From contig NZ_JXUW01000002.1 of the NCBI RefSeq assembly GCF_000949255.1, positions 62,001 through 126,000 of the forward strand: a DNA stretch of 64,000 bases, in the 5' to 3' direction. Of the stretch, positions 58,652 through 63,800 are shown piece by piece. The stretch's first letter is position 1; the number at the start of each line of letters is the position of its first letter. This DNA comes from Ferrimicrobium acidiphilum DSM 19497. Its GTDB lineage: Bacteria; Actinomycetota; Acidimicrobiia; Acidimicrobiales; Acidimicrobiaceae. The notes beneath the pieces were generated by a model, which saw nothing but the letters and a program-made list of their open reading frames with translations, ran no database searches and had not been told where the DNA came from. A program made the position numbers and the translations under genes.

Positions 58652-58715
58652 TTGCACTTTAACTACAACGCTAATTGTGGGGTTCTAAGAGGTGACGAAG
58701 TTGGAGGGAGAGAGT

Positions 58716-61466
58716 ATGAAAAAGCAGCTGAAGGGGTTAGAACGGCATTTCACATCCCAAGGGGTTGATCCGTTTGCATCGGTAGTGTGGGAGCGCCGTG
58801 ATGCGAAGATCTCTAATTACCGGACAGGAGAGGTGGCCTTCGAACAGGATGGGGTAGAGGTGCCGAGCACCTGGAGCATGAATGCCACCAATATTCTCTC
58901 GCAGAAGTACTTCCGAGGTGCGCTCGACTCTCCTGATCGTGAGGGATCGCTTAAGACGGTAGCGGACCGTATCGTCGATACATTGGCTAGTTGGGGTCAA
59001 AAAGATGGCTATTTCACCGGACCTGACGAGGCGGCTACCTTCGCCGATGAATTGAAGTATCTCTTGATCCACCAGCGGGCTGCATTTAACTCGCCCGTGT
59101 GGTTCAACATAGGAGTGAAGGGCGTGCCACAGCAGGGTTCTGCGTGCTTCATCCTCTCCGTTGATGACACTATGGATGCCATTTTGAATTGGTATCGTGA
59201 GGAGGGTGTCATTTTCAAGGGCGGCTCTGGCTCTGGAGTCAATCTCTCTCGAATTCGATCATCGATGGAGCATCTCAATGGCGGCGGGACGGCCTCGGGA
59301 CCAGTCTCGTTTATGCGTGGCGCTGACGCTTCGGCTGGGACCATCAAGTCGGGAGGCAAGACACGCCGGGCGGCCAAGATGGTCATTCTCGATGTAAGCC
59401 ACCCGGATGTTGAGGAGTTCATCTGGACGAAGGCGATCGAGGAACGAAAGGCTCGCACCCTCGAGGCGGCAGGCTTCGATATGGGTGTGGACGGCAAGGA
59501 TGCCTTCTCTGTGCAGTACCAGAACGCGAACAACTCGGTCAGAGTGAGCGATGAGTTCATGCAGGCGGTTCTTGAGGGCCGCGACTGGGAGCTAAGGGCT
59601 GTCACCACCGGCGAGGTACTGCGGCGGCTGCCAGCTCGTGAACTTATGCGCCAAATTGCACAGGCCGCTTGGGAGTGTGCGGACCCGGGTGTTCAGTATG
59701 ACTCAACCATCAACCGCTGGCACACAACCCCTAATGCGGGCAGAATCAATGGATCCAATCCGTGTAGCGAGTACATGCACCTTGATAACTCGTCGTGTAA
59801 CTTAGCCTCGATTAATCTTTTGAAGTATCTCAATGATGATGGCAGCTTTGACGTTGATGGCTTCACTCATGCGGTCTCCCTCCTGATTGTGGCGCAGGAC
59901 ATTCTTGTTGGCAACGCCGACTATCCGACTGATAAGATTGCCAAGACCTCACGTGCATTTCGTCAGCTCGGCATTGGTTACGCTAATCTTGGTGCGCTAC
60001 TGATGGCACTCGGCTTACCCTATGATTCAGAGGCAGGGCGTGCCTATGGAGCTGCTATCACCGCGATTATGACGGGCTATGCCTATGACACCTCTGCATG
60101 CTTGGCGGCTAGGGTAGGTGCCTTCGATGGTTACGACGCTGATCGTGAGGGGATGCTACGCGTTATTGGCATGCACCATGAGCACGTATCGAAAATTAAC
60201 TCTTACTTTGTGCCTCCAGAGTTGATAACGGCGGCTCAAGAGATTTGGCAAGAGACGGAGACGCTCGCCCAGGAGCAAGGGATCCGGAACGCTCAAGTGT
60301 CGTTACTGGCCCCTACTGGGACTATTGGCCTGCTCATGGACTGTGATACCACTGGGATCGAACCTGACCTTGGTCTTGTCAAGTTCAAGACACTCGTAGG
60401 CGGCGGAACGATGACTTTTGTCAATCAGACTGTTCCTCGGGCGTTGCGATCGCTTGGCTATGACCAGACAGCGATCGACTCTATAGTGGCATATATAGAT
60501 GAGCACAAGACAATACTGGGTGCACCGCAACTGAAGGAAGAACACCTGCCGGTCTTTGCTTGTGCCATGGGTGACAATGTCATTAGCTACCGTGGTCACA
60601 TTGCGATGATGTCGGCAGTACAGCCATTCTTGTCAGGCGCCATCTCCAAGACCGTCAATCTTCCTGAGTCTGCGACGGTGGAGGATATCGAAGAGGCCTA
60701 TATAGAGAGTTGGCGGCTCGGCTTGAAGGCTGTTGCGATCTATCGCGATAACTGCAAAGTCGGTCAACCTCTCCAGACGATGCGCAAGGAAGAGAAGCCC
60801 GTAGTGACCGCAGAGGTTGCCGAGTTGCGGCGTGAGATCGCGGATCTTGGTTCACGTTCCAAGCGAGAGAGATTGCCGAGGCATCGACAGTCGAGAACAT
60901 ACGCATTCCAGGTCGCCGATGCTGAGGGCTATGCCACCGTCGGGGAGTATCCTGATGGACGTCCGGGCGAGGTTTTCATAAAGGTATCGAAGCAGGGATC
61001 GACGCTTGCTGGAGTTATGGACGCATTCTCGATTGCCGTCAGCCTGGGCCTCCAACATGGAGTACCAATGGAGACCTTCGTCCGCAAGTACGTGAATATG
61101 CGGTTTGAGCCTGCTGGTATCACAGACGATCAAGACATTCGTATCGCCTCGAGCCTGGTGGATTACATCTTCCGTAGGCTAGCGATTGATTACCTTGACA
61201 CTGATTCTCGCGACGATTTGGGAATCCACACTACTGGCGAGCGGACTCGTAGCTTGCTGTTCCCAACAGAGGATTCACATCTTCCTTCGAACAAGGAGAT
61301 TGATGAGAGTTACGGTGCTTCGGTGACGCCATTGCCTCCGCTTGACGATGCGACGCCATTCGTGCAATCAGACGCCCCGTACTGTTATTCCTGCGGCAAC
61401 GTGATGCAGCGGTCTGGTTCGTGCTTTGTATGTGCGAGTTGTGGGACCACGTCAGGGTGTTCGTAA
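58716..61466 (+). CDS. nrdJ: Adenosylcobalamin-dependent (class II) ribonucleotide reductase
   Basis: A 916-residue enzyme that makes deoxyribonucleotides with B12 in place of an oxygen-requiring radical cofactor. Landmarks: FNSPVWFNIG, FILSVDDTMDAIL, FKGGSGSGVNLS, GADASAGTIKSGGKTRRAAKMV, NPCSEYMHLDNSSCNLASINL and LAPTGTIGLLMDCDTTGIEPD. A C-terminal extension ends with a zinc/redox cysteine cluster (CYSCGNVM and CFVCASCG). I start at ATG 58716, because GGAGGG (58703-58708) is 7 bases ahead; GTG 58692 would add 8 residues. QueG in this window also depends on cobalamin. Confidence 0.96.
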   Translation: MKKQLKGLERHFTSQGVDPFASVVWERRDAKISNYRTGEVAFEQDGVEVPSTWSMNATNILSQKYFRGALDSPDREGSLKTVADRIVDTLASWGQKDGYFTGPDEAATFADELKYLLIHQRAAFNSPVWFNIGVKGVPQQGSACFILSVDDTMDAILNWYREEGVIFKGGSGSGVNLSRIRSSMEHLNGGGTASGPVSFMRGADASAGTIKSGGKTRRAAKMVILDVSHPDVEEFIWTKAIEERKARTLEAAGFDMGVDGKDAFSVQYQNANNSVRVSDEFMQAVLEGRDWELRAVTTGEVLRRLPARELMRQIAQAAWECADPGVQYDSTINRWHTTPNAGRINGSNPCSEYMHLDNSSCNLASINLLKYLNDDGSFDVDGFTHAVSLLIVAQDILVGNADYPTDKIAKTSRAFRQLGIGYANLGALLMALGLPYDSEAGRAYGAAITAIMTGYAYDTSACLAARVGAFDGYDADREGMLRVIGMHHEHVSKINSYFVPPELITAAQEIWQETETLAQEQGIRNAQVSLLAPTGTIGLLMDCDTTGIEPDLGLVKFKTLVGGGTMTFVNQTVPRALRSLGYDQTAIDSIVAYIDEHKTILGAPQLKEEHLPVFACAMGDNVISYRGHIAMMSAVQPFLSGAISKTVNLPESATVEDIEEAYIESWRLGLKAVAIYRDNCKVGQPLQTMRKEEKPVVTAEVAELRREIADLGSRSKRERLPRHRQSRTYAFQVADAEGYATVGEYPDGRPGEVFIKVSKQGSTLAGVMDAFSIAVSLGLQHGVPMETFVRKYVNMRFEPAGITDDQDIRIASSLVDYIFRRLAIDYLDTDSRDDLGIHTTGERTRSLLFPTEDSHLPSNKEIDESYGASVTPLPPLDDATPFVQSDAPYCYSCGNVMQRSGSCFVCASCGTTSGCS

Positions 61467-61605
61467 TTTTTAGGGTTCTTGGAGTGTCTCCCATTGCTTA
61501 ACTAAGGAAACGCCTAAAGTCGTCTCTGCGGTTAATCTTCTGTTTGTTTGCATGTCTTCCGCCCTCACCCTGTATATGGGATGGGGGCGAAGCGTGTCAG
61601 AGCCT

Positions 61606-61628
61606 CAACATATAATCCCCATATGTTG
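61606..61628. repeat. Inverted repeat at the 5' end of the tyrosine recombinase gene
   Basis: CAACATAT (61606-61613) and ATATGTTG (61621-61628) are perfect inverted arms around a 7-base centre, AATCCCC. This is the geometry of a tyrosine recombinase core site, and equally of an operator. A related sequence, TATATGGGATGGGG, lies at 61573-61586. Immediately after comes GGAGCGCTCC (61630-61639), a perfect palindrome that includes the ribosome binding site. Confidence 0.55.
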
Positions 61629-61642
61629 TGGAGCGCTCCTTA

Positions 61643-63013
61643 ATGGTGTCATCTGTTCGGGTAATACGTCCGGTCGCGGTCGATCCTGAGGTCATTGAGC
61701 GAGTTCTTGGTGTAACCCCTCATGAGGTCGAACATGTGGATGCTCCCTCCATTTTGGTGGATGGGGAGTTCCATGTTGCTGCTAGCCGGTGGCTACTCCG
61801 CAAATATAGGTTGCGCCCTGTTGAAGCTACCATTAAAAGCCATGCGGCACGTTTAGCGCTGTATATTGCGTGGTTGCGCAACGACTGCGGCTTAGCCGGG
61901 AATGACCAGTGGTACGCTGACGTATTTGTGGTCTCGGAGGAGCAAGTCCGTCGTTACTACCGACTACGCCAATTCGATCCTAAAACTAGAGTGAGTTCTT
62001 CTGCATGGCAAGCTCAACTTTCTACCATCAAGCAGTTTCATGAGTTTCTGCGAGATACCTACCGGGTTCCGCTTCCCTTTCATATTGAGTCCTTTCTGAA
62101 TCCCGTGGGCATGCGAGTTACTAGTGCGACTGAGCTGCGACCTCGCATGAGAGACGGGAGTCGCGGTACGCCAATCACTCCAGAATTTTCGGACCTGTTG
62201 ATTCAAGGAGCTCTCCGCATCGACGGTCAATTGCGGCAGACCGACTCGCTCACGGTAGAGCGTGATGCCGCCTTCATTAGTTTAGGGTTGGCAACAGGAA
62301 TGCGATCGGCAACGCTCGCCAGTATTACTGCCTATGAACTACCACCTCTCGGTGCCGGTCCACTAACCACCATCAGAGTACCTGATTTTATCACGAAGGG
62401 TGATGCAGGCGGAGATGCTCTTGTCTTCGCTCACCGGTTGGTGCCAGTTCATCAGTATATTCATGGAGCTAGAGACGAGCTGATAGGGATGATGCGCGCG
62501 CCATATTCACCAATCGATGCGATCGAACTCGTTGGTGCAGATTCTGATGCGTGGGAGACAACCGTGGACGGGAAAGTTAGGAGATTTACCTGGGTGGAGA
62601 CCGACATGATGACTCGTAGACGCCTGGTCTTGCCAGACGGTACATCACCATTACTGTGGTACGGCGGGTATAAGGCTAAGCCCATATCCTACGCTCAGGC
62701 AGCCACGATAACGGCAATGGCACGGGATTGGACTAGAGCTCATCTTGAGCCGAATTTTCCTGCGAGTTTTCGTACGCATGATCTTCGACACACTTACGCG
62801 ACACATTTGGTAGTGTGCATCTACAAGCAGGCCGTGGCCCAATATATTCATGAAAGCGCGGCTGATGCATATCGACCGGGCCGTATTGCAGATGCTGTTA
62901 GTATTGCCAAGCTATCCCTCGGCCATGCAAGTGAAGCATCGACCAATCTTTATATTCAGCATGCGCCCAAGTTTCTCGATATTAGCATTGACGAATTCTT
63001 AGGAGGGAAGTAG
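61643..63013 (+). CDS. Tyrosine recombinase / integrase
   Basis: About 456 residues. The N-terminal SAM-like domain spans residues 45-145 (VEATIKSHAARLALYIAWL). The catalytic domain has Arg221 (ATGMRSATLASI), Lys252 (DFITKGDA), His379-x2-Arg382 (RTHDLRHTYATHL), His428 (LGHAS) and Tyr437 (NLYIQHA). All residues are present, so it should be active. A 60-residue insertion lies between the Lys and His-x2-Arg motifs (about 280-345). ATG 61643 is chosen because GGAG is 9 bases ahead; GTG 61628 has none. Its stop overlaps the next gene by one base. Confidence 0.88.
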   Translation: MVSSVRVIRPVAVDPEVIERVLGVTPHEVEHVDAPSILVDGEFHVAASRWLLRKYRLRPVEATIKSHAARLALYIAWLRNDCGLAGNDQWYADVFVVSEEQVRRYYRLRQFDPKTRVSSSAWQAQLSTIKQFHEFLRDTYRVPLPFHIESFLNPVGMRVTSATELRPRMRDGSRGTPITPEFSDLLIQGALRIDGQLRQTDSLTVERDAAFISLGLATGMRSATLASITAYELPPLGAGPLTTIRVPDFITKGDAGGDALVFAHRLVPVHQYIHGARDELIGMMRAPYSPIDAIELVGADSDAWETTVDGKVRRFTWVETDMMTRRRLVLPDGTSPLLWYGGYKAKPISYAQAATITAMARDWTRAHLEPNFPASFRTHDLRHTYATHLVVCIYKQAVAQYIHESAADAYRPGRIADAVSIAKLSLGHASEASTNLYIQHAPKFLDISIDEFLGGK

Positions 63014-63495
63014 TGGCGCATCCAACTCGTGGGCAGACTAGCCATACATATGATATCGTCGAGGTCGTAAATATTGACTATGCGAATTTAGCGTTGGTCT
63101 ACCGCGATGCGGCGCACGCCTTACCGCAACGAGTCCAATTCCGGATTGACGATCAGACGGCGGCAGCACGGCAGGTCTTTCAAGGGATTGTGGATAGCTT
63201 GGCGCTGGTTGGTGATGGCCAATGGGAATCAAGCTATACCTTAGGGCCACGAATGGGCGTGTTGGCTAAGCTCGTGGAGGTCTTTCATGCTGACGGAATC
63301 GACGATTTTAGTAGCACCTCGGTCGGACTGACAGAGCTACGGAATGCCATCGAGAAATTTGATTCTGGTAGCAAGCGTAGCCTCAACAAGCTAATGGGGA
63401 GAGTGTTGCAGACTTGTCACCCCAATGGTCAGGTATTAGCGAAAGCACTAAGAGGCTCTCCTGACATTCATGTGGATAAACTCGCCCTTTCATAG
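63013..63495 (+). CDS. Recombinase-coupled protein of unknown function
   Basis: A 160-residue protein whose GTG overlaps the recombinase TAG (TAGTG), so it is co-translated. No family recognised. The N-terminal part is mixed (VVNIDYANLALVYRDAAHAL). The middle has LGPRMGVLAKLVEVFHADGI. The C-terminal third is basic and helical (SKRSLNKLMGRVLQTCHP). It could be an accessory subunit of the recombinase, as in multi-gene recombinase modules, or a cargo gene. Base use is similar to the recombinase. Confidence 0.6.
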   Translation: MAHPTRGQTSHTYDIVEVVNIDYANLALVYRDAAHALPQRVQFRIDDQTAAARQVFQGIVDSLALVGDGQWESSYTLGPRMGVLAKLVEVFHADGIDDFSSTSVGLTELRNAIEKFDSGSKRSLNKLMGRVLQTCHPNGQVLAKALRGSPDIHVDKLALS

Positions 63496-63497
63496 GG

Positions 63498-63800
63498 TCA
63501 CTTTAGGTCAATGGGTCCGAGAAGCTTGCACACCAGGGCCAGGGTAGCCTTGGCGGAGTGAAACCTATACGAGCGGGCAATGATGGAGCGAGCCTTGGTG
63601 TTAAGTCCCTCGACCCTCCCGTTGGATACCCCAAGTCTGATGGAGGCGAGGATACCTTCTCTATGAGTACGGATGGTCTTTGAGAGTCGGATGAAACTCG
63701 GTGGTCTTGAACTCAGAGGCTCGCTTTCACCAGTGATCGAGCATCTCGTTCAGCTTCCTCACGAGGTGCGATGCACGGCGAGGACCTGGACTGCTTAGGT
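63498..63800 (-). pseudogene. ISL3-family transposase C-terminal remnant
   Basis: Minus-strand frame ending at 63498 reads KTIRTHREGILASI, then LGVSNGRVEGLNTKARSII and FHSAKATLALVCKLLG, the characteristic C-terminus of ISL3 transposases (SNGxxEGxNxKxR). About 120 bases upstream the frame breaks and continues in others (SEFKTTEF, and VRKLNEMLDHW followed by TGA). No further transposase is readable out to the window edge at 64000. The remaining 63801-64000 shows no gene. Confidence 0.82.

Follow-up and report, generated by a model that had tools for sequence, protein, structure and literature searches.

GInts (ginABCD) are genomic islands in which all four genes are required to excise and integrate (Bardaji et al. 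2017; PMC5385486), and in P. aeruginosa their insertion site is the end of a ribonucleotide reductase gene (PMC5385486). SEs (intA-tfp-intB-srap) are strand-biased circularizing integrative elements that have been reported only from Gammaproteobacteria, and the recombinases of RIT elements are shorter and all catalytic (PMC10214605). The locus described here lies in a 64-kb stretch of DNA, analysed as a whole and termed the window, of a genome of 3.09 Mb (G000); among the named relatives retrieved, a Ferrimicrobium MAG was the closest. The results indicated that the locus is a broken copy of a known kind of element, in Acidimicrobiales, and not a new self-contained module. It is very likely the left end of a degraded GInt/SE-like multi-recombinase island that an ISL3 copy later broke. 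A supposed orphan gene and crossover site are replaced by a defined target, the nrdJ stop, and by defined ends. The features are listed in Table 1.

Table 1. Features of the nrdJ-intA locus, in window coordinates.
Feature	Position	Strand	Remark
nrdJ-like ribonucleotide reductase, 924 aa, target gene	58692..61466	+	coding sequence left intact; element at stop codon
attL core TTCGTA(A), nrdJ last codon and stop	61460..61466	+	repeated at right border, G000 C2:127635-127641, outside window
left terminal motif ATTTTTAGGGTTCTTGGAGTGTC	61466..61488	+	pairs with right-end motif
arm-type box AGTGTCTCC	61483..61491	+	TGTC at offset 19 after nrdJ stop
second arm-like box CATGTCTTCC	61551..61560	+	
GTGTCAGAGCC box in intA leader	61594..61604	+	TGTCAGAnCC invariant in five aligned leaders
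inverted repeat, extended, CTCAACATA-TAATCCCCA-TATGTTGTG	61604..61630	.	putative operator of intA
TATAAT, -10-like	61611..61616	+	TAGAAT in L004 and L034, TACAAT in L065, TACGAT in G269
intA, tyrosine recombinase	61643..63013	+	456 aa from ATG; ORF open from GTG 61628
gene B 5' fragment, 147 codons	63013..63453	+	counterpart of 610-aa second gene of L004
ISL3-derived last 13 codons and stop of 160-residue ORF	63454..63495	+	
ISL3-type insertion sequence end, 302 bp, truncated	63454..63755	-	related copies elsewhere in G000
start of cargo-like segment	63756..64000	.	331-aa ORF beyond window; also in G311 at nrdJ, G310 elsewhere

A complete four-gene operon was found in the parent family, in L004 (another Ferrimicrobium) and on pKP058 of Kitasatospora. 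The L004 operon is intact and encodes proteins of 456, 610, 748 and 176 aa, with genes that follow a short leader and overlap or lie a few bases apart. Gene A encodes a catalytic tyrosine recombinase; gene B encodes a protein that matches no Pfam family and has no recognisable first catalytic arginine; gene C encodes a large integrase-like protein, which keeps GLRD and the C-terminal tyrosine by alignment; and gene D encodes a small protein. In pKP058, the four proteins measure 514, 622, 698 and 137 aa, and A, B and C matched the window/L004-type genes in order (E 5e-6, 7e-4 and 8e-18, respectively). Gene D showed no sequence match to the small gene of pKP058. A-B-C sets were likewise carried by pNL1 and by a plasmid of Sinorhizobium. 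No signal was obtained when the profile of A was compared with those of B and C. The window copy of the operon is incomplete: what remains is A and 147 codons of B. In G000, gene C is absent and gene B is represented by its N-terminal part only, and gene D is absent from the 4.17-kb segment described below. Judged by its sequence, the intact operon of L004 is a sign of a living family around the dead window copy.

We compared this family with the known systems. Like the GInts, it has a four-gene operon at the left end that encodes three integrase-like proteins and one small protein, and it inserts site-specifically at the end of a gene whose product stays intact, with short direct repeats at the borders. 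The site-specific insertion with short imperfect direct repeats that characterises GInts was found here at the nrdJ stop, with TTCGTAA borders. The target, the end of a ribonucleotide reductase gene, is shared with the P. aeruginosa GInts, and truncated copies are known among GInts as well. In contrast to the GInts, the host belongs to the Acidimicrobiales, the operon shares very little sequence similarity with others of its type, the first catalytic arginine is seemingly missing in the second gene rather than the third (in GInts, A and B carry the catalytic RHRHY set and C lacks the first arginine), and the window copy lacks the end of B and the later genes. Judged from gene order and sizes in L004, an ordinary recombinase, a non-catalytic protein, a large integrase and a small protein would follow each other as in SEs, and B has no recognisable first arginine, as expected of an SE-like Tfp. 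SEs keep a split attB in attL and attR, and their joined ends give an imperfect inverted repeat with a 6-bp spacer; the imperfect inverted terminal motifs around a 6-bp core would resemble this arrangement. The closely spaced or overlapping genes are also SE-like, whereas the hosts reported for SEs are Gammaproteobacteria only. The Tn554 family (tnpA-tnpB-tnpC) and RIT elements likewise have several tyrosine recombinase genes per operon, and Tn554 shares target specificity and a 6-bp footprint; however, these elements have three genes only, and Tn554 has no counterpart of the SE Tfp. Taken together, gene order, lengths and similarity appear to fit islands of the GInt/SE type, and the sequences seem too divergent to choose between GInt and SE.

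To define the borders, we used the near relative G312, whose reductase is 99% identical to the G000 nrdJ product (C-terminal 254 residues searched). G312 does not contain a 4,171-bp segment of G000 (L008:3465-7635), and its nrdJ stop runs directly into the sequence that lies 4.17 kb downstream in G000, where the segment is flanked by TTCGTAA on both sides. The sequence-only reading had suggested comparing strains for an empty site or an inversion at the inverted repeat upstream of intA; the missing segment is bounded at the nrdJ stop instead. G312 retains another left end at nrdJ, and hence its site is not a pristine empty one. The right end of the element lies approximately 1.6 kb beyond the window, where four inverted copies of the arm-type box (L008 7513-7617) precede the terminus GAAAGAC. 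The same right end was found in G000, in G311 (90% identical) and, as a shorter piece, in G314, in which the bases after GAAAGAC differ; thus the right border is fixed. When the two ends were joined, they formed an inverted repeat: with a core of 8 bp, 16 of its 23 positions paired, and with a core of 6 bp, 15 of 23. This pairing was equalled by 0.4% of shuffles. By analogy with the experiments on GInts and SEs, the island would insert at the nrdJ stop through recombination within a core of 6-7 bp (TTCGTA/TTCGTAA), flanked by inverted terminal motifs that have TGTC arm boxes behind them.

In both G000 and G311, the right end is joined to a second left end, so that it may belong to a neighbouring element of a tandem array. 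This direct succession, together with the occurrence of the 331-aa ORF segment elsewhere in G310, would suit a mosaic origin of the 4.17-kb segment, in which the left end with intA and the right end came from separate tandem insertions and were fused by an IS-mediated deletion. However, joining the ends still yields an inverted repeat with a core of 6-8 bp, and TTCGTAA stands at both borders; we therefore regard a mosaic as a serious alternative that is somewhat less than probable.

Returning to a single degraded island, we asked how widely its left border is shared. Of 30 related loci, 10 have a TGTC at offset 19 past the nrdJ stop; no other offset has more than two. Among these ten loci, L013, L018 and L034 carry an IntA gene or a fragment of it beyond the border, a remnant of IntA is present in L033, and an IntA-like frame opens in L027. 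In G231, from another family, an IntA homolog lies behind nrdJ at equal spacing. The nrdJ stop is probably a long-lived landing site, used by several lineages of multi-recombinase islands across the Acidimicrobiales, with tandem stacking and with the frame kept; this would parallel the independent use of a ribonucleotide reductase gene end by the P. aeruginosa GInts. If so, attB would be the conserved final coding stretch of a key gene, the elements would keep the nrdJ reading frame and stop, and a system of the SE/GInt type would occur far outside the hosts reported for SEs. In the literature, we found no paper joining ribonucleotide reductase, integration site, tyrosine recombinase and genomic island.

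An inverted repeat lies 140 bp inside the left border, just upstream of the intA ribosome-binding site. It was described in the sequence-only reading as 8-base perfect arms around a 7-base centre, and this description was exact (CAACATAT-AATCCCC-ATATGTTG, 61606-61628). The 64 kb contain 27 perfect 8-bp inverted repeats (0-20 bp between arms), two of them with a 7-bp centre, and therefore the repeat geometry alone weighs little. The repeat is single-copy in the window and in the genome; outside G000, it accompanies intA in L004 and L034 and, in a decayed copy with an interrupted centre, in G269. Its conservation upstream of related intA genes, with three clear cases, lifts it above chance. The extended repeat reads CTCAACATA-N9-TATGTTGTG in the window, CTCGATATA-N9-TATGTCGAG in L004 and CTCGACATA-N9-TATGTCGAG in L034, and one arm position covaries on both sides, from A-T in the window to G-C in L004/L034. 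In the G311 C2 leader, the dyad was lost, and the TGTCAGAGCC box and TAnAAT were kept. TGTCAGAnCC and TAnnAT were kept in all five leaders, and no consensus sigma-70 promoter was called in the intA leader. The repeat had been proposed as a crossover site, but the homology between separate insertions is unbroken through it on both sides, so that there is no sign of a crossover there, and the borders lie at the nrdJ stop and approximately 4.2 kb downstream. The repeat is more likely an operator or promoter element of intA than a crossover site. The further proposal that it may repress its own gene held in part, since control of intA is plausible for a repeat that straddles a conserved -10-like box.

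The repeat could alternatively be bound by IntA, or by another operon product, as an accessory or core-type site in synapsis, besides or instead of transcription control. Its position among TGTC boxes, no more than 140 bp from the left end, and the arm position that changes jointly on both sides would agree with protein binding of this kind. However, the arms are unlike the terminal motifs, and the G311 C2 leader lost the dyad while retaining the two other elements; a role in synapsis is thus unlikely in our view, and we continue to regard the repeat at 61606 as most likely an operator at the intA promoter.

The recombinase ORF extends over 61628-63013 from a GTG start (461 codons). According to the alignment with L004, the ATG at 61643 is the likelier start, which gives 456 aa, equal to the length of the L004 homolog; the two proteins are 64% identical. 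The catalytic set R226, K257, H384, R387, H433 and Y442 (numbering from GTG) is complete, and the R-K-H-R-H/W-Y set of the tyrosine recombinase superfamily is thus present in IntA. The first five residues were invariant across a five-protein alignment, and the Y442 column was kept in every member reaching it. All six positions bore out the earlier statement that no catalytic residue is missing. The match to Pfam Phage_integrase scored 26.3 bits, slightly below the cut-off of 27.1. Relatives of IntA were scarce in the genomes searched: among 396 genomes of the phylum only its own copy was found, and no homologs were found in viral contigs. The AlphaFold model of IntA with one relative reached a pLDDT of 34, which was unusable for the fold.

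The 160-residue ORF starts within the intA stop codon (TAGTGG), with the one-base overlap at 63013 that had been noted earlier, and the same overlap is present in L004. It matched no Pfam family, as the absence of a known family in the sequence-only reading had implied. It is, however, a truncated 610-residue protein with an IS-derived tail and no gene in its own right: it was 52% identical, without gaps, to residues 1-149 of the L004 610-residue protein. The ISL3 terminus, which reads GGCTCTCCTGACATTCATGTGG (beginning GGCTCT), starts at 63454, and therefore the first 147 codons are native and the final 13 codons and stop are IS-derived. Other ISL3 copies of G000 matched from the identical terminal base at 88-90%, with unrelated left flanks. 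The remnant had been placed after the 160-residue ORF; it actually begins inside it, and it is cut at 63755. Related sequences occur at 19 other places in G000 (about 20 in all), most of them 82-89% identical to the remnant. The ISL3 copy would have entered gene B after codon 147, and a later deletion would have removed what was left of the IS and of B, along with C and D. Since a GInt moves only with its full set of four genes, the window copy, reduced to intA and the first 147 residues of B, is expected to be immobile on its own.

We also considered whether the 160-residue ORF has been retained as a functional short protein, such as a regulator that binds DNA and controls intA. Its reading frame is open, and its nucleotide differences from L004 gene B fall mostly at third codon positions (60, 40 and 108 by position); nevertheless, this pattern mostly mirrors selection prior to truncation. 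In the AlphaFold model of the 610-aa protein, only approximately residues 15-147 formed a longer stretch of moderate confidence (pLDDT mostly 55-83), which would suit a retained short protein. However, the short form was in no other genome searched, and neither the 296 genomes of the class nor the plasmids searched contained stand-alone relatives of the ORF, which makes a retained function very unlikely. Foldseek and VIA-align with the model of the 610-aa protein gave no convincing match for a recombinase-like DNA-binding fold. The weak models of A and full-length B probably resulted from too shallow alignments.

The two genes had been read as a recombination module, and in L004 both ORFs indeed belong to one recombination operon with the identical one-base overlap; the partner there is the full-length 610-aa protein, and the self-contained character was not supported, given the truncation of the second gene and a search of G000 that did not find the rest of the operon. 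Although the complete catalytic set and a repeat of core-site-like geometry conserved alongside intA could recall a small two-gene module crossing over at the 8-7-8 repeat, such a module is extremely improbable, as the second ORF is only part of a gene and its tail comes from the IS, the homology among independent insertions spans the repeat and ends at the nrdJ stop, and the repeat is single-copy in the genome. The degraded island has an intact relative in L004, an actinobacterial four-gene recombinase island. Since SEs are reported from Gammaproteobacteria only, the diversification of these islands would be easier to trace with an intact related system from the Acidimicrobiales.

Several further observations were made around these loci. 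The right end of the L004 element was not found on the L004 contig, and a tRNA 3'-end-like stretch, GGACGTGGGTTCGAATCCCATCGGGCCCACCA, was observed at L004:10550-10595, downstream of the four-gene operon. The 331-residue ORF, at L008:6065-7060 (C2:126065-127060) beyond the window, has a signal-peptide-like start, and its segment is common to G311 (at nrdJ) and G310 (elsewhere, in inverted orientation) at 91-93%. In G231 (L009, G231:C107), nrdJ and a frameshifted intA homolog are separated by an extra ORF of approximately 250 residues. L065 (G311 C2:164441-165125) lies outside the main nrdJ locus; here a right end that carries arm boxes passes directly, via TTCGTAA, into a second left end, which is followed by an intA 5' fragment (124 codons), and a second nrdJ-like gene (67% identical) lies approximately 8 kb upstream. 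Six relatives that carry no left end of the element (L020, L023, L029, L037, L039 and L042) have a GATGCAACATA or AATGCAACATA motif 15-35 bp past the nrdJ stop, which lies inside a short dyad (e.g., TTGCATCTGATGCAA) in four of the six. The insertion core of L004, TGCATCTGA, resembles this motif.
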